Origin: a bacterium
Lineage (GTDB): Bacteria; Actinomycetota; Acidimicrobiia; Spongiisociales; UBA5794
NCBI GenBank assembly: GCA_024228555.1
Contig: JAAETI010000583.1
Span: forward strand, 1 to 64,000
DNA: 64,000 nucleotides
Direction: 5' to 3'
The notes under the pieces were generated by a model that was given only the letters and a program-made list of their open reading frames with translations, made no database searches and had not been told where the DNA came from. The translations under genes and the position numbers were made by a program. Within the stretch, counting starts at the first letter, position 1, and each line of letters begins with the position of its first letter. Of this stretch, positions 3,659 to 22,985 are shown one piece after another.

Positions 3659-4297
3659 CTATCGATCAAGACCGAACAGTCTCGTTACCGCACAGGCGGC
3701 TCCGTAGCCGTTGTCGATGTTCACAGCCACGATGCCCTGCGCACACGACGCAAGTGCAGCGTGCAAAGCAGTCTCCCCGTCTCGTGACACGCCGTATCCA
3801 ATTGACGTGGGTACCGCAACGACGACCCCCGGGACCAAACCGCTGAGGACCGTGAACATCGCACCATCCATTCCGGCGACAGCAATGATCGCCCGGTATT
3901 CCGCCAATTCTTCGCTGATGTCGAGCAACCGCCACAATCCAGCCACACCGACATCTGCATACTCGGCAGCCGGAATACCGTGGTAGGCCAACGTGCGCAG
4001 CGCTTCCCGCGCCACCCTCAGATCGGAGGTTCCGGCAGCAACCACAGCTACTCGTGGCTCCCCGGCGGGTGGTTCCCAAGTGCCGGCGATCCCGGTCCAC
4101 GACTCCTCGTCGTAGTCGGAGATCGACAGTTCCTCGGCGATGGCCGGAACCAGTCGGGTGAGGAGAACGTTGTCGGCGCCTTGCAGCGCCTGATCGATCG
4201 CTGCTGCGATCTGCTCAGGCGACTTGCCTTCACAAAGGATGGCCTCGGGCATACCGATCCGATCAGGACGATCACGGTCGTAGATCACATCAGCCAT
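3659..4297 (-). CDS. larB: LarB: pyridinium-3,5-biscarboxylic acid mononucleotide synthase
   Basis: LarB carboxylates and hydrolyses nicotinic acid adenine dinucleotide, the first step to the nickel-pincer nucleotide (NPN) cofactor of LarA. The 212-residue product has a PurE-like C-terminal domain: VAVVAAGTSDLRVAREA around 83-99, VAGMDGAMFTVLSGLVPG around 140-157, and SCAQGIVAVNIDNGYGAA around 184-201. The Cys of SCAQ (185) is at the same distance from the C-terminus as the reactive Cys221 of the Lactiplantibacillus enzyme. The ATG at 4297 overlaps the larE stop by 8 bases. It is the last gene of the 19-gene operon. Confidence 0.9.
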   Translation of the reverse strand: MADVIYDRDRPDRIGMPEAILCEGKSPEQIAAAIDQALQGADNVLLTRLVPAIAEELSISDYDEESWTGIAGTWEPPAGEPRVAVVAAGTSDLRVAREALRTLAYHGIPAAEYADVGVAGLWRLLDISEELAEYRAIIAVAGMDGAMFTVLSGLVPGVVVAVPTSIGYGVSRDGETALHAALASCAQGIVAVNIDNGYGAACAVTRLFGLDR

Positions 4298-5090
4298 TGA
4301 CATGCACCACCGAGCTACCCATTCGATACGAGGCAAAACGCACCGCCCGGTCCTGCCGTGCGGCTACGAAGCTCCGGAGTTCGCCAACCAGAGTCTCGGA
4401 CCCGCGCACCCGCTCCAGCGTTGCCGCATCTAGCTGGATTTCGATCCGTTCCATAAAGACTCGGCACCGGACTGTCCGTGGTGAGAGCAGCTCCTTGGCG
4501 AACTCCTCTACGTCATCGATGAAGCGCAACCGAGTCGGGGTGACAGTGATCCCGGTCTCCAAGCGGCTCGACAGGCAGGGGGCGGCCGGTAGCTCGGCGA
4601 CGGCACCAAGCCCGAGATGCCTGGCTATCGCTCTGATGGCGGTCTTGCCAAGGCCCGCTTCCACAAATGGGTGCCGAACTCCGTGCTCGTCGGCCGCAGC
4701 GAGACCCGGTCGGAAATCCGAGAGGTCATCCGTGTTTGCTCCGGAAACTATCTGTAGGTCGGTCGCTGCTGCGATTCGGTCGTACAAACTGGACTTGCAG
4801 TGGTAACAACGATTCACCTGATTGGCCAGGTAGCTCTCGTTGCTGAACTCACCAGCGTCGACCACCCGTAGAGGCCAGCCACGCTCGGCAGCCAGCAATT
4901 CAACGCGTTCCGTCGCCTTCGGCGGCACGGCAGGTGAGACGGCATGGAATGCGACAAACTGGGAACCGAAGACATCGTGGGCCTCCGCAGCGAGTGTCAG
5001 ACTGTCGACGCCCCCGCTCACGGCCACCGCCACCGGCCCCATTGATACCAAGATCGCCGCCAGATCCGCGTGGAGTCGATCACTGTTCAT
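4290..5090 (-). CDS. larE: LarE: NPN sulfur-transfer synthase
   Basis: LarE activates the LarB product with ATP and inserts sulfur to give the dithiocarboxylate form of the nickel-pincer precursor. The PP-loop SGGVDS lies at 25-30. Three cysteines fall in conserved places: NRCYHCK (95 and 98) and PCLSSR (172). In characterised LarE proteins the lone PCLSSR-type Cys is sacrificed as sulfur donor, while three-Cys proteins bind a [4Fe-4S] cluster and act catalytically. This one belongs to the three-Cys type by sequence. I chose ATG 5090, preceded by GGAGGG at about 4 bases, over start codons further upstream. It overlaps the larC end by 11 bases. Confidence 0.92.
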   Translation of the reverse strand: MNSDRLHADLAAILVSMGPVAVAVSGGVDSLTLAAEAHDVFGSQFVAFHAVSPAVPPKATERVELLAAERGWPLRVVDAGEFSNESYLANQVNRCYHCKSSLYDRIAAATDLQIVSGANTDDLSDFRPGLAAADEHGVRHPFVEAGLGKTAIRAIARHLGLGAVAELPAAPCLSSRLETGITVTPTRLRFIDDVEEFAKELLSPRTVRCRVFMERIEIQLDAATLERVRGSETLVGELRSFVAARQDRAVRFASYRMGSSVVHVNG

Positions 5091-6306
5091 CGAACCCTCC
5101 ATCGGTTGCTCTGGTCTCAACCTCACGCCGCAATAGCTGCCGCCCCTGGTGCCCGGAGGCGTTCTGTCCGAGATCGCCCATGTCGGCTTTCACTGTCGCC
5201 GCACCGCTGGGACGAACCACAGCCTTTACGGAGACCCCCTGCACGCCCGCCGCCTCTGCGCGGGCCAGCACCTTGCGGTGCTCAAACCGATAGCGAAGAC
5301 CAATGGTTGTGGTCTGCTCGAAGCATGCCCGCACGGTCTCGTCGAAGGTGTCCACCATTGTGAGCACCTGGATCGCATGACCGATCCGACCCTTCTTGGT
5401 GCCTACCGCGCTCTGGAGTACTTCCAATACCCCGGACAGTTCTCTTACGGCATCCAATCCGACCGCCAGATCTTCCGGAGTCTGGTCATCGACCATGAAC
5501 TCGAGGACCGCAACCTGCTCGTCGGAAATGGAGTCACCGTCGGAGACGTAGCAACGGGCCCTGAGCACATTGGCCACCCCCGGCAGTTCCCTGGTACCGA
5601 ACCCGTGTCCGGTCTCGGCAGATCGGTGCACCCCGTAGGGCAACTGGAAGGAGGGGTCTAGGTAGCGCAGGATCGCCGCACCGGTTGGGGTGATCCGCTC
5701 CCCACTGATCCCATCATCCACAAAGGGGAAATTGCTCAGTAGCCGCTGCGTGGCCGGGGCAGGCACAGGGAGACGGCCGTGAGCGGTATCGATGAAGCCA
5801 CCGCCGACGGGCAACGGGCTGGTCGACCAACTGGCAGGAGAGAGTTCCTCGATCAGGTGCGCCGCGCCAACGACATCGGCGACGGAATCGATCGCCCCCA
5901 ACTCATGCAGGACAACGTCATCAACTGGAACACCGTGTATCTCCGCTTCCGTCTCGGCGATCAGCCCCACGATGCCCAACGCCCTGTCGCGCACCGTCGG
6001 CTCCAACTCAGCAGCACGGATGTCGCTCTCGATCGACGCGTACGTGCGATGCTGGCTATCGAATTCGTGATCCTCGGGAGGGTCGATCCGCATCCGACTC
6101 CCCACCAAGCCGGCGCCGGCAAAGGGCTCCGGACCAACAACCCAGTCGGCGGGCACTCCGGCTGAGCGGATTGCGGCAATCGTGCCTTTGGCGAGATTTG
6201 GGTGTGCGTCCAACAGGGCGGCGATGAACATATCGCCCGCGATCCCACCAAGGACATCGAGGTGGACATGTCGCGGACGCTCCATTGCGGTATCCAGATC
6301 AGCCAT
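5080..6306 (-). CDS. larC: LarC: nickel-pincer cofactor nickel insertase
   Basis: LarC uses CTP to insert nickel into the LarE product, finishing the NPN cofactor. The protein of about 408 residues starts with HLDVLGGIAGDMFIAALLDA, the LarC family opening, and contains VVLHELGAIDSVADVVGAA and PTGAAILRYL. The C-terminal half (VLEFMVDDQTPEDLAVGLDA, then a basic GTKKGR stretch) is the LarC2 region. In some bacteria larC1 and larC2 need programmed frameshifting to be joined. Here one uninterrupted frame carries both. ATG 6306 lies 11 bases after the larA stop. Confidence 0.93.
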   Translation of the reverse strand: MADLDTAMERPRHVHLDVLGGIAGDMFIAALLDAHPNLAKGTIAAIRSAGVPADWVVGPEPFAGAGLVGSRMRIDPPEDHEFDSQHRTYASIESDIRAAELEPTVRDRALGIVGLIAETEAEIHGVPVDDVVLHELGAIDSVADVVGAAHLIEELSPASWSTSPLPVGGGFIDTAHGRLPVPAPATQRLLSNFPFVDDGISGERITPTGAAILRYLDPSFQLPYGVHRSAETGHGFGTRELPGVANVLRARCYVSDGDSISDEQVAVLEFMVDDQTPEDLAVGLDAVRELSGVLEVLQSAVGTKKGRIGHAIQVLTMVDTFDETVRACFEQTTTIGLRYRFEHRKVLARAEAAGVQGVSVKAVVRPSGAATVKADMGDLGQNASGHQGRQLLRREVETRATDGGFDEQ

Positions 6307-6317
6307 TGCCCGTAACT

Positions 6318-7748
6318 CTACGATCGTGCCGAGAGATTGGGCGCCAGGCCACCAGAGAAGGATTCGGGGGTGCACAGGATTCTCGGGTTCTTGCCGACGT
6401 AACGCTCAGCGTCCTTCAGCGCAGCGTCGAGATTCGGCAGCGTCCGATAGCCCATGCCTCGAGCATGGCCCGGACTTTGGGCGCCTACCAGGTAGACCTG
6501 GGAGCACCACTTGAAGGGAACAGCACCACCGGCGGTCATCGACATCGCATGGAACGGGTGATAGGTGTAGCTGTTTGAGTAGCTGAAGCAGTAGCCGTTG
6601 TCGGTTGAGATACGATGCGCATCAGCCGACTCAAGGAACGCCTGCTGGCTGTCGTACTTTTGCAGCGCCTCGTATGTCTCCTCGTATGACGGGAACCACA
6701 CGTCGTTGAACCAACCATCACACCAGGAAACCGCGATGACCACTGCATTGGGCCGCAACGCCCGAGCACACCGTGAAAACTGAGCCCCGATACCAAGGCT
6801 CATGAGGATTGGATTCGTGCCCATTCCGGGGCCGTAGTGGAAGTCTCGTGGCACTCCGACCAGGAGCACGTCGGCCGGTTCGTCCAGCTCATTGAGAACG
6901 ATGTTGGACCGCTGCCCGGCCAGCGGCCAGGTCGCCTTCTCCACAGAACGTATACGCCCAGCTTTGACGTCGAGCACGTCGCCCTTCTGTCCGATGACTG
7001 CATCGACGGCGAAGTACTGCTTCCCGGTGCGTTCCTCGATTGCCTCGCCGATTGACTTGAACTGATGTCGCATATGGGAGCCAATCGCCCCGCCCAGCCA
7101 GTCCTCACGCAGCATCGTCTTTGGTGAATGGTGGCTCGCTATGGATTCTCGGCCGGCCATCCCGGTCACGAGCATTTTGTAGCCACCCGAGTAGCCGCCG
7201 TAAGGATTGGCGGCGCAGTGGCCGACGAGGATCGGGATATCGACTTCGGCGACCATCTGACTGGTTTGCACCGAATTCCCCATGTCGTCGGTCCCCAGGT
7301 CCAACAAGTCAGATCCCTCCGCATCATGATTAACGATGCGGCTCGGCCAGAACTGGTCAACGATCTCGGGGCCGAGATACCAGAGCCATTCCTCGTAGGT
7401 GTTCTTGCGATGCAAGCCCTGGGCACACACCAGCGTTATGTCTGCGAGGCGGCATCCACCCTCGAGCAGGTCGGCGACGATCATCGGAATCGAGACGCGG
7501 CGATGCGCCAGCGGATGGGCACCACCCTTGACCCTGTCGGGGAAGACGATCGCAGCCGTCTTGCCGGGACCGGCCAACTCTCGGAGCGGAGGCATATCGA
7601 GCGGAGAGTCGAGCGCAGCCCTGGTCACTGCCACCGGGTCCACTGTCGGCGGGTCAAGGTACGTTTCGCCGTATCGAACCACCACCGCCGAATCCGGCAG
7701 TTCTACGGACATCTGTTGCAGCCCATAGTCAAGATCAACTGGCTTCAC
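6318..7748 (-). CDS. larA: LarA-family nickel-dependent 2-hydroxyacid racemase/epimerase
   Basis: A 476-residue member of the LarA superfamily, which interconverts stereoisomers of 2-hydroxyacids by hydride transfer on an NPN cofactor bound to a lysine. Visible motifs are AQGLHRKNT (His113, equal to His108 of lactate racemase), YGGYSGGYKMLV (Lys191, equal to the NPN-bound Lys184) and SIASHHSPK (His207, equal to nickel ligand His200). At the place of the second catalytic base (His174) I see Asn181 (HCAANPYGGYSG). His177 lies four residues earlier. Family members act on lactate, malate, phenyllactate or sugar acids, so lactate is only one option. The start is GTG 7748 after an AAGGAG/GGAG ribosome site, overlapping the preceding reductase gene. 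Confidence 0.88.
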   Translation of the reverse strand: MKPVDLDYGLQQMSVELPDSAVVVRYGETYLDPPTVDPVAVTRAALDSPLDMPPLRELAGPGKTAAIVFPDRVKGGAHPLAHRRVSIPMIVADLLEGGCRLADITLVCAQGLHRKNTYEEWLWYLGPEIVDQFWPSRIVNHDAEGSDLLDLGTDDMGNSVQTSQMVAEVDIPILVGHCAANPYGGYSGGYKMLVTGMAGRESIASHHSPKTMLREDWLGGAIGSHMRHQFKSIGEAIEERTGKQYFAVDAVIGQKGDVLDVKAGRIRSVEKATWPLAGQRSNIVLNELDEPADVLLVGVPRDFHYGPGMGTNPILMSLGIGAQFSRCARALRPNAVVIAVSWCDGWFNDVWFPSYEETYEALQKYDSQQAFLESADAHRISTDNGYCFSYSNSYTYHPFHAMSMTAGGAVPFKWCSQVYLVGAQSPGHARGMGYRTLPNLDAALKDAERYVGKNPRILCTPESFSGGLAPNLSARS

Positions 7749-8628
7749 TTCTCCGCTCCTTGCTTATGAGCGCCTTGAACACGGCGGCGGTGTCCTCGTC
7801 ACCTAGACCGGCCGCCTGGGCTTTCTCGTTCAATCGCTGACCCGCCTTGCTGAATTCGAGATCGATACCGGCCGCATCGGCCATGGCCAGACCTAGCCCG
7901 ACGTCCTTGTGCAGATTGCTGACGGTGAAGTTCGGCGTGAACTCTTCCGCGACAACTTTGGGACCGAGTTCCTTGAACAGGTTGCTGACGGTGCCCGCCC
8001 CGCTGTGGACAATGGTGTCGAACAGGAGGCCGGGCTCCATCCCCACTCGCTCGGCCAAGGCGAACATCTCGGCGGTGACCGAGTTGATCGCCCCGAACAT
8101 CAGATTGTTCAGCAACTTCAGGGTATTGCCATGGCCGGATGGACCGATATGAACAACCCTCGAAGCAAATGCCTCGAGGATGGGCGTCACCGTTCGCAGG
8201 TGTTCCGGATCTCCGCCTGCCGGCAGCGTCCAATTTCCGCACCCCGCGGGTCGGCCCAGGATCGGGCAGTCGAGATAGCCGACCCCCAGCTCCGCAGCAG
8301 CCCTGGCATTCTCCTTCGAAGTCGTTGGATCAACCGTGCTGGTGTCAACGATCACCGACCCGGCTGCCATACCAGCGAGAAGGCAGTCCTCGCTGCCCCG
8401 GACTACGTCTGTAACGTGCTCGGGCCGGGGCAGGGAGATGAGGACTACTCGGCTGGTTTCCGCGACCTGGCGAGGCGAGACAGCCGTGGCGCACCCGATA
8501 CTGTGCGCGGACTCCAAGGCTGCGGCGCTCTTATCGAAGACCACCACGTTGTAGCCGTAGTCAACCAGCCTGGCCGCGATTGGGGCGCCCATAAGACCGC
8601 ACCCGACAAGACCAACCTGCCTCTTCAT
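7735..8628 (-). CDS. 3-hydroxyisobutyrate dehydrogenase-family reductase
   Basis: An NAD(P)-dependent oxidoreductase of about 297 residues from the beta-hydroxyacid dehydrogenase family. The Rossmann motif GLVGCGLMGAP is at 6-16. The family catalytic Lys is in GHGNTLKLLNNLMFG (Lys171). The substrate loop normally reading DAPVSGG is altered to DCPILGRPAG. The family includes 3-hydroxyisobutyrate dehydrogenase, tartronate semialdehyde reductase GarR and sulfolactaldehyde reductase YihU. Beside an aldolase and LarA, a role in reducing or oxidising a short aldehyde/hydroxyacid made by the pathway is likely. ATG 8628, with GGA seven bases upstream, is preferred to the GTG at 8631. Confidence 0.85.
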   Translation of the reverse strand: MKRQVGLVGCGLMGAPIAARLVDYGYNVVVFDKSAAALESAHSIGCATAVSPRQVAETSRVVLISLPRPEHVTDVVRGSEDCLLAGMAAGSVIVDTSTVDPTTSKENARAAAELGVGYLDCPILGRPAGCGNWTLPAGGDPEHLRTVTPILEAFASRVVHIGPSGHGNTLKLLNNLMFGAINSVTAEMFALAERVGMEPGLLFDTIVHSGAGTVSNLFKELGPKVVAEEFTPNFTVSNLHKDVGLGLAMADAAGIDLEFSKAGQRLNEKAQAAGLGDEDTAAVFKALISKERRSEAS

Positions 8629-8641
8629 CACAGTTTCCGTC

Positions 8642-9673
8642 TCAGCTCCTCGCCATCTCGAATTGGCTCTTCACGGCCTCCACGATCTGCCCCGCGTCGG
8701 GGATGAAAGCATCCTCGAGCGGCGGGCTGAATGGGATCGGCGTGTGGGGCCCGGTGACCATCTTGATCGGGCTGCGCAGCGAGGCGAACCCCTTGTCGGC
8801 GACCAGCGCACTGATGTCGGTCGGCAGAGAGCAGCGCGGGTGTGACTCATCGACGATGACCAGCCGGCCGGTCTTCTCCACCGATCCAAGAATCGTGTCC
8901 TCGTCCAGCGGCGAGTACGTGCGGGGATCGATGACCTCAGCCTCGATGCCCTCCTCGGCGAGGAGCTTGGCTGCATCCAACGCAGTGTGCACCATCTTCT
9001 GCACGCCAACGATAGTCACGTCCTTGCCCTCACGAGCGATACGCGCCACCCCAAACGGGATGGTGTACGGCTCTTCGGGAACATCGTCATCGAGCAGATA
9101 CAGGCGCTTGTGTTCCATGAATATGACCGGGTTGGGATCACGAATGGCGCTGAGCATCAGTCCCTTTGCGTCGCGTGCGGTGGAAGGTGCAACGACCTTC
9201 AGCCCGGGCACGTGGGTGTACAGCGAGTACAGGGTCTGCGAGTGCTCGGCACCCGCCCGGAAGCCTGCACCGGTAACAGTCCTGACCACGATCGGAACCG
9301 AGACCTTCCCGCCGTACATGTAGCGCAGCTTGGCCGCATGGTTGAGAAGCTGGTCAAACGAAGTGCCAATGAAGTCGGCGAACATGATCTCGACGATGGG
9401 CCGCATACCGACGAGCGAGGCGCCAATGGCGGCACCGACAAACCCGGTTTCCGCAATGGCTGTGTCGACGACCCGATCGCGGCCGAACTGGCCGAGCAGG
9501 TCTTTGGTAACGCCGAAGACCCCACCCCAGCAGTCGGTACCGTCCGGGTTGATGTCGTCACGGCCTGCACCGCCGGCGATGTCTTCGCCCATCAGCACGA
9601 TTCGACTGTCGGCCTCCATCTCCTGACGGAGAGCCTCGTTCAGAGCATCTTTGATATTGAGAGTACGTGTCAC
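8642..9673 (-). CDS. 2-oxoacid/acetoin dehydrogenase E1 beta subunit
   Basis: A 343-residue beta subunit of a thiamine-diphosphate-dependent E1 component. It carries LMGEDIAGGAG near the N-terminus, VVDTAIAETGFVGAAIGASL, EIMFADFIGTSFDQLLNHAA and GAEHSQTLYSLYTHVPGLKV, and ends with a typical transketolase C-domain (GRLVIVDESHPRCSL). The start is GTG 9673 after TAAGGAG. The alpha subunit precedes it by 9 bases. No E2 acyltransferase or E3 accompanies the pair, so it may borrow an E2/E3 from elsewhere or act on an aldehyde or ketol donor without forming an acyl-CoA. The substrate (acetoin, pyruvate or a branched 2-oxoacid) cannot be decided from motifs. Confidence 0.88.
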   Translation of the reverse strand: MTRTLNIKDALNEALRQEMEADSRIVLMGEDIAGGAGRDDINPDGTDCWGGVFGVTKDLLGQFGRDRVVDTAIAETGFVGAAIGASLVGMRPIVEIMFADFIGTSFDQLLNHAAKLRYMYGGKVSVPIVVRTVTGAGFRAGAEHSQTLYSLYTHVPGLKVVAPSTARDAKGLMLSAIRDPNPVIFMEHKRLYLLDDDVPEEPYTIPFGVARIAREGKDVTIVGVQKMVHTALDAAKLLAEEGIEAEVIDPRTYSPLDEDTILGSVEKTGRLVIVDESHPRCSLPTDISALVADKGFASLRSPIKMVTGPHTPIPFSPPLEDAFIPDAGQIVEAVKSQFEMARS

Positions 9674-9682
9674 GTCAGCTCC

Positions 9683-10645
9683 TTATGCGATCGGTGCGTA
9701 TACGTCGGTCGTCAGCTCCGACACGTCGGGCCACGGTGCCGCTATTGCGATATCGAACGCAGCTGCGACATCGGCAGCAGCCTGCTCGTCGATCGCATCC
9801 AGCTCGGCCGAGTCGATGATCCCTTCGACCGTCGCCCTGAACCTGAGCAAAGGATCCTGCTCCCGCCACCAGGCCTCTTCCTTCGCCGGCTTATACAGCT
9901 GGTTGTCGCCCTCGTACTGACCGCCATAGCGATACGTCATCGCCTCGATCAGGCTGGGTCCACCACCGCTGCGACCCCTGTCAATCGCTTCCTCCATGGC
10001 GTCGCGCACAGCAAGGACATCCATGCCGTCAACCTGCACCGCAGGTATGCCGTACGGAGCAGCCATCGCCGAGATCGACTCAGCGTTGAGGTGGTACTCG
10101 ATGTAGGTGCTTTCGGCATAGAGGTTGTTCTCGCAGACGAAGATCACCGGGCACTCGAAGAGTGCGGCAAAATCCAACGACTCGTGCCAAGCGCCTTGAT
10201 GGACGGCACCGTCGCCAAAAAAGGCAGCGGAGACGTTGTCCTTGCCGAGGTACTTGTAACCGTAGGCGACCCCGGTCGCGATCGGCAGACCTCCCGCCAC
10301 GATTCCCATGCCACCAATCATCCCGTAGTCCTGGTCGGCGACATGCATCGAGCCGCCTTTGCCACGGCACACGCCGTTGGCCTTGCCATAGACCTCACCT
10401 GCGAGCCCGTCGAGCGGGATATTGCGGGCAATGGCGTGCCCATGATTGCGGTAGGTGGACGTGAACCAGTCTTCATCGCGAAGCGGCGGAAGCACCCCAC
10501 AAGCCACTGCCTCCTGCCCTGAGTAGGTGTGGAGGAAGCCGTCAGCTTCGTTGTTGGCGGCCACGGTGGCCACACGATCCTCAAAACGGCGGATGCGCAC
10601 CATTCGAGTCCATAGATCGATAAGGGTGTCTCTTCCAACGGTCAT
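9683..10645 (-). CDS. 2-oxoacid/acetoin dehydrogenase E1 alpha subunit
   Basis: The alpha subunit carries the thiamine diphosphate site: GDGAVHQGAWHESL at about 144-157, closing with CENN at 171-174. Other conserved parts are RIRRFEDRV, HTYSGQEAVACGV, RNHGHAIAR and CRGKGGSMHVAD, the last typical of acetoin and pyruvate dehydrogenase alpha chains. ATG 10663 overlaps the phosphorylase stop (ATGA), but ATG 10645 has a clear GAAGGAG six bases upstream, so I chose it. With the beta gene it forms a heterotetrameric E1. Placement between nucleoside-processing and LarA genes suggests it handles a carbon fragment from the same pathway. Confidence 0.88.
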   Translation of the reverse strand: MTVGRDTLIDLWTRMVRIRRFEDRVATVAANNEADGFLHTYSGQEAVACGVLPPLRDEDWFTSTYRNHGHAIARNIPLDGLAGEVYGKANGVCRGKGGSMHVADQDYGMIGGMGIVAGGLPIATGVAYGYKYLGKDNVSAAFFGDGAVHQGAWHESLDFAALFECPVIFVCENNLYAESTYIEYHLNAESISAMAAPYGIPAVQVDGMDVLAVRDAMEEAIDRGRSGGGPSLIEAMTYRYGGQYEGDNQLYKPAKEEAWWREQDPLLRFRATVEGIIDSAELDAIDEQAAADVAAAFDIAIAAPWPDVSELTTDVYAPIA

Positions 10646-10659
10646 CGTGTTCTCCTTCG

Positions 10660-11418
10660 TCATAGTCCGTCCACCAGCTGCAGAGCGGTGGAAAAAATGG
10701 CTTCGTAGCTTCGGTCGAATTCCTCCTGGTGCGCCGGCTCGAGCGGATCGAGGAAGCTGCGACCACGGAGCAGCTCGTCCCAGACGACCAGCATTGAAAC
10801 GGCTGCCATGTCGAAGTAGGTGGCAGCTGCCAGGGTGGTGGCCGTTTCCATGTCCACAGAGCGATAGCCGGCTTGGTGCCAGTCCTCAACCATTCGTCCA
10901 TCTTGCGCAAAGATCGAATACCAGGTGAGGTGGGTGCCACCGTGCACCACGTGGCCCTGATTGGCGAGCAACGCCCGCGCTGTGTCGCTCCACTGGGGAG
11001 TCGACCGGATGCTGTCGCCCGCACCGTAGATGTGGGCAATCCCTTCCTCGCAGACGGCCGTGTCGGGGACGACAATGTCGCCGGGATTCAAATCTCCCTG
11101 CAGACCCCCGCACGAGCCAATCTGTATGGCCAAGTCGGCACCGAGCGCCCCGAACAGATGGGCAACCTCGACGGCTCGAGGGGCTCCGTAGGCGCAGCAG
11201 TAGGCAACCGGTTTGCCATGCCACCTGCCCAAAAAAATGTCGGGAAAAGGTAGCTCGATGACATTCTCGAGAAGAGACAGGCGCTCCCCGGTCCGCAGTT
11301 CCCGCCACCAGGTCCCTTCACTGATCACCGCAACGGGGAGTTCATGGTCTTCGAGACCGAGCGCAGCCTGCCACTGGTCTGCGGTCAGATCCATGATCGA
11401 CCGATACGCTCCACTCAC
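10660..11418 (-). CDS. Nucleoside phosphorylase-family protein
   Basis: This 252-residue PNP/UDP phosphorylase-superfamily protein would split a nucleoside with phosphate into base and sugar-1-phosphate. Support: LPFPDIFLGRWHGKPVAYCC, then ADLAIQIGSCGGLQ and GDIVVPDTAVCEEGIAHIYG, and YRSVDMETATTLAAATYFDM, where the Met-Glu pair normally contacts the ribose hydroxyls. The position that is usually VSD, which reads the base in purine enzymes, is VVWDELL here, so base preference is unclear. GTG 11418 shares its first base with the TAG of the upstream gene (TAGTG). It stands next to a nucleoside hydrolase, an unusual double provision for the same bond. Confidence 0.8.
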   Translation of the reverse strand: MSGAYRSIMDLTADQWQAALGLEDHELPVAVISEGTWWRELRTGERLSLLENVIELPFPDIFLGRWHGKPVAYCCAYGAPRAVEVAHLFGALGADLAIQIGSCGGLQGDLNPGDIVVPDTAVCEEGIAHIYGAGDSIRSTPQWSDTARALLANQGHVVHGGTHLTWYSIFAQDGRMVEDWHQAGYRSVDMETATTLAAATYFDMAAVSMLVVWDELLRGRSFLDPLEPAHQEEFDRSYEAIFSTALQLVDGL

Positions 11419-12521
11419 TACCGGTTCTCCTCCAGCTTCCGGAAGAAGTCTCGGAAGATCGCATCGCGGTCGATGTCATATGACTCGAGCATGAGCCGCT
11501 CCGGTCCGGGTGCCGGCACCCAGAACAGACCCTCGTCAAGGGTCGGTGTCGGGGCCAGCTCGGAGGGGACCCAGGCGGGGTTCAGCAGCCAGGCGATGGT
11601 GATCAGATCCCACATCACCCAGGTCCGCCCGAAATGGTCGTAGATACCGCGCTGGGCATGAAGCGGATTGTTGGTATACAGGTGATAGAGGTAGTCACCA
11701 ATCGCACCCCTGCCTCGGACCCATTCCTCCATCTCAGGTAGCGAGATCCGGAGTTGCGCGCCCATGTAGAAGCCAGGGAAGTAGATGAGCGGAACTCCGC
11801 TGTCAAAGAGGACATGCGTTGCAGCAACGTCCTGTTCAAGGTTCAGACCACCTCGATTGGATCGCGGGCACCAACTGGGATAGCTGGCAGTCCACATCAC
11901 GACGATGCGCTCGATGATTCTGGGCTCCTTGACGATCGCCGAGGCGACGTTGGTGACACAACCGATTGCCACCACATACAGCGGGTCATCAGCAGGGCTG
12001 CTCATTGCCAACTCGATCAGCCGATCCACAGCGGGGCTTTCCACCGGCGTGTCGACTGACGTCATGTAGCCGGGTGAGCCGCGAAAGACCATACCCTCCG
12101 CCGAAGCACCGACGAGGTCGTAGATCTTCAGGATCTCCTCGTAGCTCTGCTCCATGCCCTCATCGGGACCGACGAACTCGATCGTTGCGGGATCGACTCC
12201 GGCGGCCCGCAGCCTGGTTGCCCAGCTCAGGGACGAGTCGATCAGACCGGTCTCGGCGCTCTGGTCCGCGGCGCCCTGATCCAGCGCCGCAGATGCCTCG
12301 AGCAGGCCCGCTCGGCGATGGGCGAATGAGTAGGGCTCGGCCAGCACAGCCTGAATATCGAGGGCGTCGGTCGACTGCAACGCCCAGGCCAGCGTGAACT
12401 GGTCATCGATCTCGTTGGCCGTGTCGGTATCGATCACTACCCGGGGGCGTCCGCCTGGGATGGCGAGTCGTTGTGCCCTGAGCTCGGGCGAGATCGTGGG
12501 ATAAGTACTGGGAGAAGTCAC
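11418..12521 (-). CDS. Inosine-uridine-preferring nucleoside hydrolase-family protein
   Basis: This 367-residue protein of the calcium-dependent nucleoside hydrolase family cleaves N-glycosidic bonds to free base and sugar. The metal motif DTDTANEIDDQF lies near residues 31-42, the family DxDxxxxxDD. LYVVAIGCVTNVASAI and the later His-rich part (NNPLHAQRGIYDHFGRTW) also fit, although the C-terminal third is unlike the canonical IunH proteins. GTG 12521 overlaps the aldolase TGA (GTGA). Homologues of this subgroup can act on non-nucleoside ribosides, so the real substrate may be a modified glycoside imported by the operon's transporter. Confidence 0.78.
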   Translation of the reverse strand: MTSPSTYPTISPELRAQRLAIPGGRPRVVIDTDTANEIDDQFTLAWALQSTDALDIQAVLAEPYSFAHRRAGLLEASAALDQGAADQSAETGLIDSSLSWATRLRAAGVDPATIEFVGPDEGMEQSYEEILKIYDLVGASAEGMVFRGSPGYMTSVDTPVESPAVDRLIELAMSSPADDPLYVVAIGCVTNVASAIVKEPRIIERIVVMWTASYPSWCPRSNRGGLNLEQDVAATHVLFDSGVPLIYFPGFYMGAQLRISLPEMEEWVRGRGAIGDYLYHLYTNNPLHAQRGIYDHFGRTWVMWDLITIAWLLNPAWVPSELAPTPTLDEGLFWVPAPGPERLMLESYDIDRDAIFRDFFRKLEENR

Positions 12522-13456
12522 AACCCAATCCTCCTGTTGTCGTTGTTGTACCAATGTGTCCACGGGGTGGCGGCACCGCTCGCAATGTCGGTGAGGGTGG
12601 ACATCCTTCTTCTCGCCTCAGCGAATGCAGTGTCACCCTCGGCAGCGCCTTCTGCCACAAGGTTCTGCCATACCGCCCGCCCGGCTACGTAGCCCGAGGC
12701 ACCGGACTCACACGCAACCTCTAGCTGGGCGGCAAAGGTGTCGAAGTCGGTGCCGGCCGAGAGCAGCGTCCAGGGTCGCGGACTCGCCTCGCTGAGCTCC
12801 ACGCAGGCTTCACGCCACTCCGAGGGGACATCGGCTGTCGAGGGGAACTCCAGCTTCAGGACGTCTGGACCAAGAGCTCCGATCTGGCGTGCCGATTCGA
12901 CGACAATCGGCCGCCGATCCGCCTGCGATGACGGAACCGACAGCGGCTCGGCGAGCAGCGGGACATCCGCCTCAGCACATGCGGCGACGAGATCAGCAAC
13001 AAACTGGTCGGCTTCGTCAGTCGATCCGAAAGGGTCGTACCAGAAGGAGCATTTGATCGCCTTCGCTCCGGCATCGACTGCCCGAGCCACATCCCATCCG
13101 GCAAAGAGCCGCGGTGGCTTCCCGGGTGTGGCGTAGTCGCCATCCTCGACACCCAGCATCAACCCGGCGCCCGCAAGCAGGCTCGGGTCGTCGGAGAACG
13201 GCTGTAGCCCGATGACGGGATCGAGCAGGACTCCGGATGCACGACTACCCAGGGCATCGACCAACCGCACTTTGGTTTGGGCAAGCTCGTCGGAAGCAAC
13301 GCTACCGGGGTCTTCGGGACTGAGTAGCGCGGCGAGAGCCCCAAGGTGGTCGACTGCAAGAACCGCAAACACGCCAACCGAAGTGGACACCGCGCGGAGA
13401 CCTGCCTCTTTCCCTGTGGAACGTGAAGTTGCGCGAGGTTCCGGCTGGTCACTCAC
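12518..13456 (-). CDS. LacD/YihT-family class I aldolase
   Basis: A 312-residue TIM-barrel aldolase of the tagatose-1,6-bisphosphate (LacD)/sulfofructose-1-phosphate (YihT) family. LAVDHLGALAALL near 33-45, GVLLDPVIGL near 75-84 and DVLKLEFP near 198-205 are the family landmarks. Lys201 of DVLKLE is the expected Schiff-base residue. Family enzymes cut ketose 1-phosphates to dihydroxyacetone phosphate plus an aldehyde, which fits the isomerase, epimerase and DhaKL kinase upstream. The reductase at 7735-8628 could process the aldehyde. GTG 13456 overlaps the ATPase TGA (GTGA). Which aldehyde is released is unknown. Confidence 0.82.
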   Translation of the reverse strand: MSDQPEPRATSRSTGKEAGLRAVSTSVGVFAVLAVDHLGALAALLSPEDPGSVASDELAQTKVRLVDALGSRASGVLLDPVIGLQPFSDDPSLLAGAGLMLGVEDGDYATPGKPPRLFAGWDVARAVDAGAKAIKCSFWYDPFGSTDEADQFVADLVAACAEADVPLLAEPLSVPSSQADRRPIVVESARQIGALGPDVLKLEFPSTADVPSEWREACVELSEASPRPWTLLSAGTDFDTFAAQLEVACESGASGYVAGRAVWQNLVAEGAAEGDTAFAEARRRMSTLTDIASGAATPWTHWYNNDNRRIGL

Positions 13457-14526
13457 GAAGCAACGGCCCCCTCCTCGCTGGAATCGTCCCTGACAATCCA
13501 CAGGTGCTCACGGGGAAGGCGAAGCATGACGGTCTCGCCATCCTTGGGCATGAACGCGGCCGAAGTCTGCACGTTCCACGTTTCGTCACCGATGCGAGCT
13601 TCGAGCTGGGTGTAGCTACCCATATAGATCACCGACTCGATGGTGGCCGGCACGACGTTCCCCTCTGTCGAGCCGTCCAGCACCGGCTGCACTTCCTCGG
13701 GTCGGACTGTTAGGACAACATGCCCACTCCCCTCGGGAACTAGATCCGGGTCGACCTCAACATCTCCAACCGACGTTGTCACGACGTTCCCCGTGCGTTG
13801 CCCGGGCAAGAAGTTGGAGTTGCGGAAGAACTGGGCCACTCGGGCGGTTGCCGGGCGCTTGTAGAACGAGTTCGGCTCGCCTACTTGCTGGACCACGCCG
13901 TCAAACATGAGGGCAACCCGGTCGGCCAGCATCACGGCCTCTTCCTGATCGTGAGTCACGAATATCGCTGTGATCCCCAGCTCGCGCTGGATGGTCCGTA
14001 TCAGGTGTCGCATCGTGATCCGCAGATTCGCGTCGAGATTCGCCAACGGCTCGTCCAACAAGAGCACCTGGGGATGAACCACCAGGGCTCGCGCCAGCGC
14101 CACTCGCTGTTGCTGGCCGCCAGAAAGCTCATGTGCCTTGCGATCCCCCAAGCCCGGTAGTTCCACGAGCTCCAGGATCTCGTCGACCCGTCGCGCAATC
14201 TCCGGCTTCTCAACTCCGGCCATCTTGAGACCGAAGCCGACGTTGTCGGCAACGTTCATCGTCGGGAACAGCAGATGCTTCTGGAAGACCATGACTGCGC
14301 CACGGCGCTCGGTTGGTATTCCAACCACAGACTCACCGTCAAACAGCACGTCACCCGAGGTCGGCTGAATGAGACCGGTGATCATGCGGAGCGTTGTCGT
14401 CTTGCCACAACCGGATGGGCCGAGGAAGGCCACCATCTCACCCGAGGCGATTTCCAGATTCAGATCTCTGACGGCCAGATGGTCACCGAACCGTCGTGAT
14501 AGGTGTTTGAGTACTACGTTTGTCAT
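13453..14526 (-). CDS. YnjD-like ABC importer ATPase
   Basis: The ATP-binding subunit, about 357 residues, of the operon's importer. Walker A is GPSGCGKTT, the Q-loop follows, the signature is LSGGQQQRVALARAL, Walker B is VLLLDEPLANLD and the switch His is in FVTHDQEEAV. A C-terminal TOBE-like domain (VLTVRPEEVQPVLDG to the end) places it with the PotA/UgpC-type importers. ATG 14526 overlaps the permease stop as ATGA. Longer reading to an upstream start would overlap the permease gene and adds no domain. The two permeases and the binding protein lie directly upstream in order. Confidence 0.92.
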   Translation of the reverse strand: MTNVVLKHLSRRFGDHLAVRDLNLEIASGEMVAFLGPSGCGKTTTLRMITGLIQPTSGDVLFDGESVVGIPTERRGAVMVFQKHLLFPTMNVADNVGFGLKMAGVEKPEIARRVDEILELVELPGLGDRKAHELSGGQQQRVALARALVVHPQVLLLDEPLANLDANLRITMRHLIRTIQRELGITAIFVTHDQEEAVMLADRVALMFDGVVQQVGEPNSFYKRPATARVAQFFRNSNFLPGQRTGNVVTTSVGDVEVDPDLVPEGSGHVVLTVRPEEVQPVLDGSTEGNVVPATIESVIYMGSYTQLEARIGDETWNVQTSAAFMPKDGETVMLRLPREHLWIVRDDSSEEGAVAS

Positions 14527-15398
14527 ATTTTTCCAAAACCTCCCATGACACTTGACTCGCGGCTCAGCTGACGCGAAGTCATAATCAGAACGAGAATTGC
14601 CGGTGCCACGAACACGAGGCTGATCGCCGCAGCAACTGAGTGGTTGGCTCCGCTCAGGAACGGGAACAGCACCAACGGCAGCGTGATGAAGGATCCGCCA
14701 CCGATAAGCAGTGTTGTGACGTATTGGCTCCAAGAGATGAGGAACGTGAACATCGAAGCCACCAGCAACCCCGAAGAAATCGCTGGGAAAGTCACATACC
14801 TGAACACGTGCCACCGGTTGGCCCCGAGCGTTCGTGCTGTCTCCTCGAGCGCTGTGCCGTAGTTGGCGAAGACGCTCGCCATGACAAGGATGAAGTAGGG
14901 AATTGATGGGATCAGGTGAACCAGAGCGACTCCGAATAGTGAATCGGTCAGATTCATCCGAATGAATATCTGGTGGATTCCCATCGTGGCGACAAGTGGT
15001 GGAACGATGATGGGCATCATCAGAATCCATTCGACTGTCGACTTGGCGCGGAAATCATGCTGGCCCAGGGCACGCGCCGCCGGCAACCCCACGATGATGG
15101 CCAGGATCGTGACAAGAACCGCGGCCTGAGTGCTGTTCCACAAACCCTCGAGCACACGCGACGAGTCGTCAACAACATATGACCATGCCCGCATCGACCA
15201 TTCGGACGGAAGAAGGTCGGGGTAGTTCCAGCGGAAGGCGAAAGACCACACCAGAAGCGAAATCATCGGCAAGCCGACTGCGAGCAGGATCGAGACGATT
15301 GCTAGCCGCCTAGCCCATCGTGTCGCTATGGGTGGCTTCTCTTTCTCCTCGATGTACTCGGGAGCTGCTTGTGTGGTGTCTTTGACATCAGTAGTCAT
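14523..15398 (-). CDS. ABC importer permease 2 (YnjC second-half type)
   Basis: A 291-residue membrane protein with about six helices, the first at IVSILLAVGLPMISLLVWSF. The EAA loop that contacts the ATPase reads EETARTLGANRWHVFRYVTFP. The binding-protein-dependent permease fold is therefore clear. In E. coli the corresponding transporter has one fused protein, YnjC, with two such domains. Here the two domains are separate genes four bases apart. ATG 15398 begins directly after the first permease. Confidence 0.9.
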   Translation of the reverse strand: MTTDVKDTTQAAPEYIEEKEKPPIATRWARRLAIVSILLAVGLPMISLLVWSFAFRWNYPDLLPSEWSMRAWSYVVDDSSRVLEGLWNSTQAAVLVTILAIIVGLPAARALGQHDFRAKSTVEWILMMPIIVPPLVATMGIHQIFIRMNLTDSLFGVALVHLIPSIPYFILVMASVFANYGTALEETARTLGANRWHVFRYVTFPAISSGLLVASMFTFLISWSQYVTTLLIGGGSFITLPLVLFPFLSGANHSVAAAISLVFVAPAILVLIMTSRQLSRESSVMGGFGKI

Positions 15399-15402
15399 GA
15401 CA

Positions 15403-16314
15403 TCACCTCTTCACCGCGTACTGTGCCAATCGCCTGTATGCGATCAGCAGGAGCAACGCCACAATCGCCAGCACGACACTGATGGCCATGGCCTCTGGTC
15501 TCAGTGCGAGGTCTGGATCCTGGTACTGACGGAATGCGACGACCGGAAGCGTCGCGGGGAAACGTACTCCGAGAAGCAGAGGTATCTCATAGCTGGCGAA
15601 GGTAAACGCAAAGATGATGATCGAAGTCGAGAGAATCCCCGGCATGATCAGTGGTAGAAGCACATGGAAGAATCGCTGCCGCCCGTTGGCACCAAGTGTT
15701 CGCGCCTGCTCCTCGTACTGAGGGCCGACGCTCTGGAGAATCGCCAACACAACAAGGCCAACGAAAGGAATCTCCTTCCATAGGAAGGTCAGGATGATGG
15801 CAATGCCGGCCTCATCGAAAACCATGACCGGAAAGTCGGCCGGTACCTCGATTACGCCAAGCGAATAGGCAAGCCGGGCGAACAGACCGCTCTGGGTTAC
15901 CAGAAGGACGATCCCGCTCGCCGCTACCAGATGCGGTACCGGAAGAGGAATCTGAAATAGGAATGTTGCCAGCCGGCTGCCACGGAAGTTGTGGCGAAGC
16001 ACCAGAGCGAAGGCAACCGCAAGGATCGAGGACAGTACCGTTGCTGTGGCCGCGATTCGGAACGTGAGCCAGAGTGAGCGAAGGAAGTTGGGGTCGGTGA
16101 GCACCGACCTGTAGTAGTCGAAGGTGAACTCATTGAGCCCGATCGCCGGGAAGTAGCCGAAGCTCTGCCCCGCCCCGACCAGGATGCCCCCGCCAAAGAG
16201 CAGCAGGATTATCGCCAAAGCGGGCGTGAGCATCAGTGGGATCTTCAATCGGCTCCGCAGCGGCTCACGTCTCACCGCGCCGATCGGCTCGCTTGTCTCG
16301 ACCAGGTCGCTCAT
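15403..16314 (-). CDS. ABC importer permease 1 (YnjC first-half type)
   Basis: A 303-residue permease with about six membrane helices. The first is LTPALAIILLLFGGGILVGAG. A long outward loop follows (GLNEFTFDYYRSVLTDPNFL), and the EAA loop is EEQARTLGANGRQRFFHVLLP. It pairs with the next gene to form the channel. Its start at ATG 16314 lies after AAAGGGTG, which can pair with a nearby AAAGG/CCTTT arm (16325-16337), so initiation may be held back relative to the binding protein. Confidence 0.9.
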   Translation of the reverse strand: MSDLVETSEPIGAVRREPLRSRLKIPLMLTPALAIILLLFGGGILVGAGQSFGYFPAIGLNEFTFDYYRSVLTDPNFLRSLWLTFRIAATATVLSSILAVAFALVLRHNFRGSRLATFLFQIPLPVPHLVAASGIVLLVTQSGLFARLAYSLGVIEVPADFPVMVFDEAGIAIILTFLWKEIPFVGLVVLAILQSVGPQYEEQARTLGANGRQRFFHVLLPLIMPGILSTSIIIFAFTFASYEIPLLLGVRFPATLPVVAFRQYQDPDLALRPEAMAISVVLAIVALLLLIAYRRLAQYAVKR

Positions 16315-16377: not shown

Positions 16378-17736
16378 TTACTTCTCGAGAACGTTCTCGA
16401 TCCAGCCAGCCTCCATTGCCGTCACCCAGTCGCCTTGCGGCTCGGGCAGGGCATGGGAGTTGAGTACGTCTGCCGGGAGCGTGGCTGCTCCCGAGGCGTA
16501 CGAGTTGAACGTGTCCTGTGCCGCTGCCGGCCAGGTGGTCACGTCTTGCGAGGTCATCCAACCCCAGCGGTCCGGGTCCGTCATGATGAGCTGATACTCA
16601 GGTGACGCGATGTAGTTGGCTACAACCATTGCCCCGGCCGGATTCGATGCATTGAACGGGATCGCTACGAAGTGGTTGTTCGAAAGCGTTCCAGTGTCGA
16701 ACACAAAGGTCCGTACCGACTCGGGATAGGTGCCCTCACTGATGTAGGTCGAAGCCCGCGACGGGTCATAGCTCATGTTGAAGTGGACCTCCTGATTGGC
16801 CATCAGGTCGGCCATGGCTCCACCCTCGGGGTATGTCTGGCCGCCACGCCACAGATCGGGCTCGATGTCGTTCAGGTACTCCCACACCTGCGGGGCGTAC
16901 TGATCGAATACTGCCTGATCGAACTCGCCAAGGAACGGCTCAGGACCGCCGGCCGCCCAGAAGAACAGATGGCGGACAAAGACGCTACCGGTGAAGTCCG
17001 GAATTGCCGGATAGGTGAACTGACCAGGATTCTCATGTACCCAGGTCTGCAACGACTCGAACGAAGTTGGTGGCTCAGACACAAACTCGCTGTTGTACTC
17101 CACCACGAACTGGGCGTGGCCCCAGGGGGATTCGAGGCCCTCAACGGGCTCACCAAAGTCGTTGGCAACTGACGGATCGTCCCACGGAACGTACTGAGCG
17201 TTCGGGATACCCTCGGACCATGGTCCAAAGAGCAGATCGGCCGTCTTCAGCGTGGCGAAGTTCTCACCGTTGATCCACATGAGATCGATCGAGCCGCCTT
17301 CGGTCTTGCCGGCTGCCGATTCATCGAGAACCTTGTTGACGAAGTCAGCCGCATCCGCCGGAACTCGGTTGATCGTGATGTTGTACTGGTCCTTCACCAG
17401 GGCAACGATGTACTCGTCAACGTTGCTGTTGACGGTGTCACTACCGCCCCACATGAACCAGTTGACGGTTGTGCCGTCAGCTGCTGCCAGGACCTCTTCC
17501 CAGGTGCCGTATCCGGGAACGTCGACGGGTGTACCGGCAGGAGCTGCCGTCGTCTCCGCCGGAGCTGCTGTCGTTTCAGCTGCACCCGCGGTTGTTTCCG
17601 TAGCTCCTGCAGTTGTCTCTGCCGGCGCTGCCGTCGTGCTGGCATCGTCGTCGTCACCGCCGCACGCAGCTGCAATCAACGCAAATGCCATCAACGCCAA
17701 CAGCCATCGCCAGCTGCTGCCTTTCAGATGTTTCAT
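16378..17736 (-). CDS. YnjB-like ABC importer substrate-binding lipoprotein
   Basis: A 452-residue extracytoplasmic binding protein. The signal peptide ends in LIAAAC with lipidation Cys25, followed by an acidic GGDDDD and a Thr/Ala/Pro linker (about residues 32-65). The mature part matches E. coli YnjB: NWFMWGGSDTVNSNVDEYI, then NKVLDESAAGKTEGGSIDLMWINGENF split over about residues 120-150, and LLFGPWSEGIPN. The YnjBCD substrate is not firmly established. Here it probably feeds the pathway's sugar or nucleoside-like compound to the cell. I chose ATG 17736, preceded by GAGGAG, because residues upstream of it do not form a signal peptide. Confidence 0.88.
   Translation of the reverse strand: MKHLKGSSWRWLLALMAFALIAAACGGDDDDASTTAAPAETTAGATETTAGAAETTAAPAETTAAPAGTPVDVPGYGTWEEVLAAADGTTVNWFMWGGSDTVNSNVDEYIVALVKDQYNITINRVPADAADFVNKVLDESAAGKTEGGSIDLMWINGENFATLKTADLLFGPWSEGIPNAQYVPWDDPSVANDFGEPVEGLESPWGHAQFVVEYNSEFVSEPPTSFESLQTWVHENPGQFTYPAIPDFTGSVFVRHLFFWAAGGPEPFLGEFDQAVFDQYAPQVWEYLNDIEPDLWRGGQTYPEGGAMADLMANQEVHFNMSYDPSRASTYISEGTYPESVRTFVFDTGTLSNNHFVAIPFNASNPAGAMVVANYIASPEYQLIMTDPDRWGWMTSQDVTTWPAAAQDTFNSYASGAATLPADVLNSHALPEPQGDWVTAMEAGWIENVLEK
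17528..17645 (-). repeat. Degenerate Ala/Thr/Pro linker repeat in the binding-protein gene
   Basis: Imperfect tandem units encode TTAAPAETTAGATETT-like text between the lipidation cysteine and the folded domain. Such linkers are common in actinobacterial, especially acidimicrobial, lipoproteins and hold the protein away from the membrane. Repeat units differ at third codon positions, so the repeat is old or under protein-level selection. Confidence 0.6.
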
Positions 17737-17859
17737 GTACCTTCTCCTCGTTTCATTCGAACTGGATTGAGTCCGATCCTTGGCGGTGGCCTCAACCGTT
17801 GCGCTGAGCCCCAAACCTCTTTCCCTCCCGGTGGTCATGCCGGCCGGGTCACTTCGTCG

Positions 17860-19314
17860 TCAGCAGTTCACCCCCGGTCTCTGTAGATGCCGGGCTGTGC
17901 CGACGCGTTCAACTGTGCGCATGCCTAACCAGGCTGCAACTTCCAACAACTCATCGCTCAGGTTGCCCTGGCCAACGGCATAGTGATGCTCGTGGCCACG
18001 AACGACGAGGGTGTTGACAAGATCTGTGAGGTCGATCGGCTCCCCGTTGAGTTCGAATCCGCCGAACCATCCTCTGGTCCCAACGAATCCTTTGGCGGGG
18101 TGGTCTTCGATACGGGCACGGACGACCAACATCTCCGAGGCGTTGTCGCCGATGTAGGTCATCGTCGTGTCCTGGGGAGCAAACACTTGGTCCCCCGCTA
18201 CACCGAATACCTCGGGAGACTTCCGACCAAGGGTCGGGTGGTCGATCCAGGTGATCCCATCCTCGTTGGCGAAGTGACGGGGGCTGACTCCGCAATGCCA
18301 CATCAACATCGTGCTAGACGTTGGATCCATGGCGGTCACATCGAGCAGCGTCGATGAGCCGGAGCGGTGGCTGAGTTCGTTGAGCAGCAGCATCGAGAGG
18401 GCGCCAGGAACATCGCCCTCACAAGAGACCGCAAACCCGTCTTCGGAGCCGAGCCAGCTGTAGGCCATGCACGGGGCGACACCGAGGATCTCCTGAAACT
18501 TCGGCCAGCACTGGACTGCGAGAGCGGAGTAGCCGTTGGAAACGGCCAAGTCCTTGATGGCAAGGTAGAGGCGCGCTCCCCGCTTCATGGCGTCGGCACC
18601 GGCGGTCACATCTGCGGCAGCTGCGGTGAGGTCGGCAACCACCTGTTCGGCTTTTTGCTCGTCGACGGCTTTGGTTAGTTCAGCCAATTCGCCGAACTCG
18701 TGAGCAACAACCCTCGTGCCAAACCGCGACCTGATCTGCGTCTCCTCAAAGTTCATGTTGTAGAAGCCAGGTGAGTTCCCGCCAATCCACCCGATCCGGG
18801 CGGTCGACATCTTCTTGAGGGCTCGCAGTGAGCGCGCTGTCACCTCGAAGCGCTCCACGAACTCGGGTTCGTCAACGTGCCCGAAGAACCACTTGTAGAC
18901 AGGGGCGTCATCACGGAGGTAGCGAGTGAGGATCGATGCGTAGTGGTTCACAGACACCAGCGAGTGCAACTGGATGTCGCCTTCCTGGTGTGGGTCCGGG
19001 GTGCCCCAGATACCGACGCGGGGAGCTACCTCGGCTAGAGGCAAGACGAGCTCACCCGAAGCACATGTCGCCAGCTCGATCATCAGGAAGTCAACCTGCT
19101 GCGCCACAAGCTCCCGAGCCGCACTCCCTGCCTGCTCGAGATCATTGACGGGTTCTTCGATTGCGACCAGTTCAAAGTCGAGCCGGTCGGCCAGGCCTCG
19201 CAAACCGTCGATTGCCCTGCCGTACTGATTGTGCTCGGTGCCGTAGAACGAGGGGAATGCCACCCCGACATAGCCAATTCGGAGCCTCGGCCCTGTGGAA
19301 TTCACATCTGTCAT
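17860..19314 (-). CDS. L-fucose/L-arabinose isomerase-family protein
   Basis: This 484-residue protein has the FucI/AraA fold pattern: LRIGYVGVAFPSFYG at the N-terminus, the middle RIGWIGGNSPGFYNMNFEE, and a C-terminal barrel. Candidate metal ligands are Glu in SCEGDVPGAL, Asp in LLDVTAMDPTSS and His in VRGHEHHYAVG, in the order Glu-Asp-His known from fucose isomerase. It should convert an aldose to a ketose in the cytoplasm. Some homologues act on unusual sugars, so the substrate is open. ATG 19314 overlaps the dhaL stop (ATGA). A 123-base gap without a clear promoter separates it from the binding-protein gene. Confidence 0.82.
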   Translation of the reverse strand: MTDVNSTGPRLRIGYVGVAFPSFYGTEHNQYGRAIDGLRGLADRLDFELVAIEEPVNDLEQAGSAARELVAQQVDFLMIELATCASGELVLPLAEVAPRVGIWGTPDPHQEGDIQLHSLVSVNHYASILTRYLRDDAPVYKWFFGHVDEPEFVERFEVTARSLRALKKMSTARIGWIGGNSPGFYNMNFEETQIRSRFGTRVVAHEFGELAELTKAVDEQKAEQVVADLTAAAADVTAGADAMKRGARLYLAIKDLAVSNGYSALAVQCWPKFQEILGVAPCMAYSWLGSEDGFAVSCEGDVPGALSMLLLNELSHRSGSSTLLDVTAMDPTSSTMLMWHCGVSPRHFANEDGITWIDHPTLGRKSPEVFGVAGDQVFAPQDTTMTYIGDNASEMLVVRARIEDHPAKGFVGTRGWFGGFELNGEPIDLTDLVNTLVVRGHEHHYAVGQGNLSDELLEVAAWLGMRTVERVGTARHLQRPGVNC

Positions 19315-22904: not shown

Positions 22905-22910
22905 ATGAAC
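22899..22910. promoter_or_regulatory. Candidate SorC operator palindrome at the transcript start
   Basis: GTTCATATGAAC is a perfect 12-base palindrome containing the regulator's ATG (22904-22902) and lying just below the -10. A repressor bound here would block initiation of the whole 19-gene operon, so autoregulation is the natural reading. Confidence 0.55.
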
Positions 22911-22912
22911 GC

Positions 22913-22941
22913 ACCGTAGTCCCGACGAACTCTGATTACAA
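22913..22941 (-). promoter_or_regulatory. Operon promoter, leaderless
   Basis: Minus strand: -35 TTGTAA (22941-22936), 17-base spacer, -10 TACGGT (22918-22913), then eight bases to the ATG at 22904. Spacing is ideal for a sigma-70-type promoter firing at the start codon. The second SorC gene of the window has the same geometry. Confidence 0.6.
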
Positions 22942-22985
22942 CTGAGCGAATCCTCGCCCACTGGCCGGTGTCTTAGAGTGCATCC

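Follow-up and report, generated by a model that had tools for sequence, protein, structure and literature searches.

The 64,000-nt window analysed here encodes, in a 476-aa open reading frame with a GTG start codon (6318-7748, minus strand), an NPN-dependent homologue of LarA that belongs to the Asn (single-histidine) subfamily; in this protein Asn181 takes the place of the catalytic His174 of lactate racemase. Sequence and structural comparisons establish its family, its cofactor-binding residues, the Asn substitution, and the operon in which it lies. The trait itself has already been described by Gatreddi et al. 2025 (PMC12611868), and this LarA is an ordinary member of the subfamily that brings a useful new genomic link.

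Family placement and active-site residues

The Pfam model Lar_N covers residues 8-209 of the protein (E = 2.6e-34) and scores 118.7 bits against a curated cut-off of 23.3, and the region to which the initial annotation had pointed (7116-7748) is the N-terminal domain of this reading frame. Together with the LarA fold described below, and with the NPN-binding Lys191 and the nickel ligand His207 that are present in 88 of 88 aligned sequences, this assigns the protein to the LarA superfamily. A phmmer search of the PDB returned 9q2u (E = 9.7e-116) and 9q3j (E = 8.6e-105) as the best matches, with the malate racemase Mar2 (1e-16) and the lactate racemases far behind. An AlphaFold2 model built from a 66-sequence alignment (mean pLDDT 96.1, pTM 0.93) matched 9q3k at Z 55.6, with an rmsd of 1.5 Å over 469 residues and 41% identity, followed by 9q3j at Z 49.5 and the canonical LarAs at Z 32-37; matches below Z 6, such as lumazine synthase and methyltransferases, were set aside as shared general folds. 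By both sequence and fold, the closest solved structures are thus the two Asn-subfamily enzymes, LarA_Sp of Streptococcus plurextorum (9q2u, 9q3k) and LarA_Bw of Blautia wexlerae (9q3j) (PMC12611868). The 9q2u sequence coincides with the S. plurextorum locus in our tree (L098). None of the NCBIfam LarA models attains its cut-off with this protein. It scores 103.6 bits against a cut-off of 460 for NF033504 (Ni_dep_LarA), and even the best match, NF052592 (LarAH14/15/16), reaches 171.6 bits against a curated cut-off of 740; the protein is therefore not a member of that family, although H174 is likewise missing from LarA groups 14 and 15 (PMC12611868).

Members of the Asn subfamily have an invariant Asn at the His174 position, a lysine-bound NPN, and an octameric assembly, and identity within the published set reaches down to 29% (PMC12611868). 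The LarA studied here is only about 40% identical to LarA_Sp and LarA_Bw, but it shares with them the Asn, the equivalents of His113, Lys191, and His207, the length, the fold, and the C-domain motifs FHYG.GMG and HPFH. With LarA of Lactiplantibacillus plantarum (5huq, 6c1w) and LarA_Ip (9eia) it has in common the two-domain LarA fold, the NPN lysine, the nickel histidine, the first catalytic histidine, and Asp71, whereas the second catalytic histidine is replaced by Asn, Arg75/Arg73 by Lys74, the C-domain active-site residues differ, and identity is 17-19%. The greater length that the initial annotation had remarked on is real (476 aa, compared with 433 aa for the 5huq chain) and is normal within the Asn subfamily.

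The reading of the N-terminal active site in that annotation, in which His113, Lys191, and His207 are retained and the His174 position is occupied by Asn181, proved right in its residue numbering, and the motif GHCAANPYGGYSGGYK aligns without gaps. Its register is set by the GYSGGYK that follows, and it is gapless against both canonical LarAs and the solved structures. His113 (codon 7410-7412, as for all residues below on the minus strand) is the counterpart of the catalytic His108 of LarA_Lp and of His115 of LarA_Sp (alignment; PMC12611868), Lys191 (7176-7178) is the NPN thioamide lysine (Lys184 of LarA_Lp and Lys195 of LarA_Sp; PMC12611868), and His207 (7128-7130) is the nickel ligand (His200 of LarA_Lp). 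Asn181 (7206-7208), within GHxxGNPYGGYSGGYK, breaks the His108/His174 pair of a canonical two-histidine lactate racemase; it corresponds to Asn185 of LarA_Sp, which was reported to be the topological equivalent of the second catalytic histidine, with other active-site residues differing as well (PMC12611868). In all 15 canonical LarAs scored from the same phylum this column holds His. In the C-terminal domain, alignment to the PDB sequences gives His304-Tyr305 (6834-6839) as the counterparts of His306 and Tyr307, His400 of the His397-x-x-His400 motif (6549-6560) as the counterpart of His401, and Arg430 as the counterpart of Arg434. This arginine (Bw numbering; Arg431 in Sp) is conserved and belongs to the tail-to-tail dimer (PMC12611868).

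Conservation of these residues is very high among the 88 aligned relatives. His113, His177, Asn181, Lys191, His206, and His207 are each found in 88 of 88, and the NPN-binding residues are all invariant. Every relative with a residue at the positions of His304, Tyr305, and His400 keeps them, and His397 is nearly invariant. As NPYGGYSG and FHYG served as search patterns for 80 of the 88 rows, selection contributes to the counts for Asn181, His304, and Tyr305, but not to those for His177, His397, and His400, which lie outside the patterns. Arg430 is retained in 83 of the 87 relatives with a residue at that position. The Asn is also present in six orthologues (L009-L014) that were retrieved independently of any pattern. 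The substitution is therefore a trait of the whole subfamily and not, as it had first appeared, a peculiarity of one sequence, and the 88/88 conservation of active-site residues rules out chance or sequencing error.

Operon, partner genes, and origin

Directly downstream of larA, in the same operon and on the same minus strand as all operon genes described here, lie the three genes for NPN: larC (5080-6375; nickel insertion, a fused LarC1-LarC2 above the cut-offs of TIGR00299 and NF052512, whose true start is probably 3' of the ORF start), larE (4290-5126; sacrificial sulfur transferase, TIGR00268 at 245.7 bits with a cut-off of 150), and larB (3659-4336; NPN precursor carboxylase/hydrolase, NF033503 at 224 bits with a cut-off of 175). 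As the genome contains a single match each to Lar_N and LarC, we conclude that its NPN serves this LarA. On the other side, a beta-hydroxyacid (HIBADH-type) dehydrogenase (7735-8631; PF03446, PF14833) ends inside the start of larA and carries a GRPxxxGxW motif common to its LarA-adjacent relatives.

Further upstream, profile matches identify 2-oxoacid dehydrogenase E1 beta-like (8642-9673) and E1 alpha-like (9683-10663) proteins, a PNP_UDP_1 family nucleoside phosphorylase-like protein (10660-11418), an inosine-uridine nucleoside hydrolase family protein (11418-12563), a DeoC/LacD family aldolase (12518-13501), and an ABC transporter ATPase with two permeases (13453-16314). The 486-aa protein beside the permeases (16378-17838) has no Pfam match and, from its position, is possibly a solute-binding protein. 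It is followed by an AraA-like sugar isomerase recognised by a remote match (17860-19314; L-arabinose isomerase 9vf5 at E = 2.1e-5, with AraA_central below its cut-off), DhaL and DhaK-type subunits of the dihydroxyacetone kinase family (19311-20992), a xylose-isomerase-like TIM barrel protein (20989-22041), and, as the first gene of the operon, a transcriptional regulator with a sugar-binding domain of SorC/DeoR type (21903-22961; PF04198), the order being conserved in a congener. In this congener, whose contig breaks off within larA, gene content and order are unchanged as far as the contig reaches, with identities of 66-96%.

The E1 alpha and beta genes (8642-10663) stand without an E2 or E3 among the annotated operon genes, and E1 beta is the most conserved operon protein in the congener (96%). 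Homologues of the AraA-like protein also occur near Asn-type larA genes at L031, L059, L076, L084, and L096. LutABC-like lactate utilisation genes (25962-28817; a CCG domain protein, LutB with LUD and Fe-S domains, and a LUD protein), possibly a second link to 2-hydroxy acid metabolism, lie about 3 kb upstream of the regulator gene that opens the operon, with a divergent gene group in between. A literature search for pathways with a similar gene set, including those for apionate and erythrulose, returned nothing useful. Long frames run antisense to larA here (7128-7769, plus strand), at L065, and at other loci, reaching 751 aa in relatives; we judged them to be artefacts of codon usage at high G+C, and a 751-aa "conserved neighbour" that matched no family was discarded as one such frame over larA.

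To see which genes accompany larA across the subfamily, we surveyed 80 Asn-subfamily larA loci together with up to 10 kb of flanking sequence. In 27 of the 80 the dehydrogenase gene lies no more than 1.5 kb from larA and in the same orientation, and a triosephosphate-isomerase-like (TIM-like) gene is near larA in 24, while the two occur together in none of the 80. Compared with positions further out, gene density near larA is about 15-fold higher for the dehydrogenase and about 95-fold higher for the TIM-like gene. Both partner labels are clustered on a quick tree, with seven changes each, compared with about 17.5 after shuffling, and 0 of 500 shuffles were as low. The larA-adjacent dehydrogenases share an almost invariant D-x-P-[VI]-L-G-R-[PT]-x-x-x-G-x-W motif, even across distant phyla, and in a reciprocal search of 296 Actinomycetota genomes only two genomes besides its own had a close homologue of the dehydrogenase (E <= 1e-45), in both cases adjoining an Asn-type larA. 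The clade of LarA_Sp is linked to the TIM-like gene, PPi-PFK, FBP aldolase, and NagA, whereas the LarA described here is linked to the GRPxxxGxW dehydrogenase and larCEB. The survey extends the published context analysis, whose main text stresses glycolytic and carbohydrate neighbours (PMC12611868). An SDR related to D-erythronate dehydrogenase adjoins larA in 13 loci. Other recurrent neighbours of Asn-type larA genes are proteins of the phosphodiesterase/sulfatase family and a TauE sulfite exporter (L042:7973-9925, L059:19780-21237, L099:14706-15449), as well as NMT1-type and TRAP transporters, and a sulfated or sulfonated substrate is conceivable for some members.

The LarA groups with alphaproteobacterial sequences at 77-80% identity, and its identity to other members of its own phylum outside the genus is about 48% or less. 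That phylum was taken to be Actinomycetota because locus L011 is identical to L067, a named Rubrobacteraceae record. Horizontal transfer of the dehydrogenase-larA-larCEB block is likely, since its gene order recurs in Pelagibius and in a Rhizobiaceae bin. A mis-binned contig is an unlikely explanation, as the PEP carboxylase on the contig is 76-79% identical to those of congeners and the congener holds the operon. A search for plasmids gave no match.

Second base, reaction, and substrate

The initial annotation suggested altered acid/base chemistry, with a different base or substrate class, and this part agrees with the published work on the subfamily (PMC12611868); its proposal of His177 as the natural replacement is not supported. 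A comparison with a second group of actinomycetotal LarAs (L015-L024, e.g. L018:1492-2871), in which the His174 region is lost through a short deletion (CSTxR motif), bears on the choice of base. All ten members of this group keep the counterparts of Tyr305, His397, and His400 as well as the nickel histidine, but they have C, A, or V in place of His177 and lack His304. In canonical LarAs, Tyr305, His397, and His400 are absent from 9 of 9 sequences, a small set of which eight are closely related, and His177 and His304 are likewise missing. Because the three C-domain residues occur in each of the two H174-lacking groups examined but not in the canonical LarAs, while His177 is confined to the Asn group, they are better candidates for the second base. 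The C-domain alignment between groups is poor, as was also noted by Gatreddi et al. (PMC12611868), and because the two H174-lacking groups may have a common ancestor, their co-conservation does not count as independent evidence; this small, partly related sample points to C-domain residues rather than His177 as the putative replacement acid/base set.

Structural data on LarA_Sp, in which no lactate racemisation was detected, direct attention to an overlapping set of residues. A ligand of 316.5 Da, apparently covalent, lies near His115, His306, Tyr307, and His401 (PMC12611868), which are His113, His304, Tyr305, and His400 here. We tentatively favour, as the leading candidate though short of an even chance, an NPN-dependent net epimerisation in sugar-type catabolism, in which Tyr305 and/or His400 would form part of an asymmetric acid/base pair. 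NPN made by the larC, larE, and larB products would be tethered to Lys191, with the nickel held by His207, and His113 would deprotonate the substrate hydroxyl while the C-H hydride passes to C4 of NPN; the tethering and the His113-assisted hydride removal follow from homology. Asn181 would be unable to act as a base on the other face, where proton exchange would most likely fall to Tyr305 and/or His400, with His304 and His397 nearby. Return of the hydride to the opposite face would epimerise the carbon, and the neighbouring beta-hydroxyacid dehydrogenase would then act on one epimer. Tyr305 and His400 may also only bind the substrate. From the gene content we infer that this LarA takes part in breaking down an imported sugar or a sugar-derived hydroxy acid and, as a guess, that it probably acts on a sugar acid, or on a hydroxy acid of a related kind, derived from an imported sugar or nucleoside-like compound.

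A possible but less probable reading dispenses with inversion, NPN-dependent hydride chemistry being used for an internal redox isomerisation, a hydride shuttle, or something similar, with His113 as the single protein base. Desguin et al. 2020 (PMC7583248) proposed that a different hydride-mediated reaction may be catalysed by groups in which the equivalents of H174 and K298 are missing, and the sugar-type neighbours (AraA-like, xylose-isomerase-like, DhaKL, and aldolase) and the triosephosphate-isomerase-like partner of the other clade are in keeping with this. Such a reaction is without known precedent in any LarA, however, and leaves aside the second set of invariant acid/base-capable residues in the C-domain. 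In its broader form, which we consider slightly more doubtful still, Asn-type LarAs would not racemise at all but would act on a sugar or sugar-acid intermediate by a new kind of NPN-dependent hydride reaction, partnered by the GRPxxxGxW dehydrogenase here and by the TIM-like isomerase in the other clade.

The authors of the structures proposed a one-base enzyme by analogy with single-cysteine aspartate/glutamate racemases (PMC12611868), which would make this LarA a racemase or epimerase that is unidirectional in practice, with a base on the D-face only and, as we add here, solvent protonating the opposite face. We regard this as unlikely, since it does not account for the (near-)invariance of His304, Tyr305, His397, and His400 in the Asn group, which is partly common to the other H174-lacking group.

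That His177 (7218-7220) assumes the role of His174 is quite improbable. It is conserved in 88 of 88 sequences despite lying outside the search pattern, and at its column, position -4, the 15 canonical LarAs have Leu, Phe, or Asn. However, it does not sit one helical turn before the Asn, as had been supposed, but in the AlphaFold2 model ends the strand 171-178, before a loop; it is lost in the other H174-lacking group; and its counterpart is absent from the main-text list of residues near the ligand density, on which the C-domain residues His306, Tyr307, and His401 appear (PMC12611868). The published superposition places Asn on the second catalytic histidine, with His177 four residues upstream, and together with the motif register and the secondary structure this rules out an exact overlay of His177 on His174. 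A catalytically dead paralogue or cofactor carrier, suggested by the missing catalytic residue and the lack of lactate activity in LarA_Sp (PMC12611868), is very improbable given the strong conservation of the cofactor-binding and other active-site residues, the catabolic operon order kept in the congener, and the apparently covalent ligand in LarA_Sp (PMC12611868).

The locus offers a compact lead, in that a LarA and all three NPN genes share one operon with a specific dehydrogenase partner, which adjoins Asn-type LarAs in other phyla too. Because of this partner, a substrate screen of the dehydrogenase by a simple NAD(P)H assay would be a direct route to the substrate of the LarA, which the dehydrogenase may thus help to reveal.
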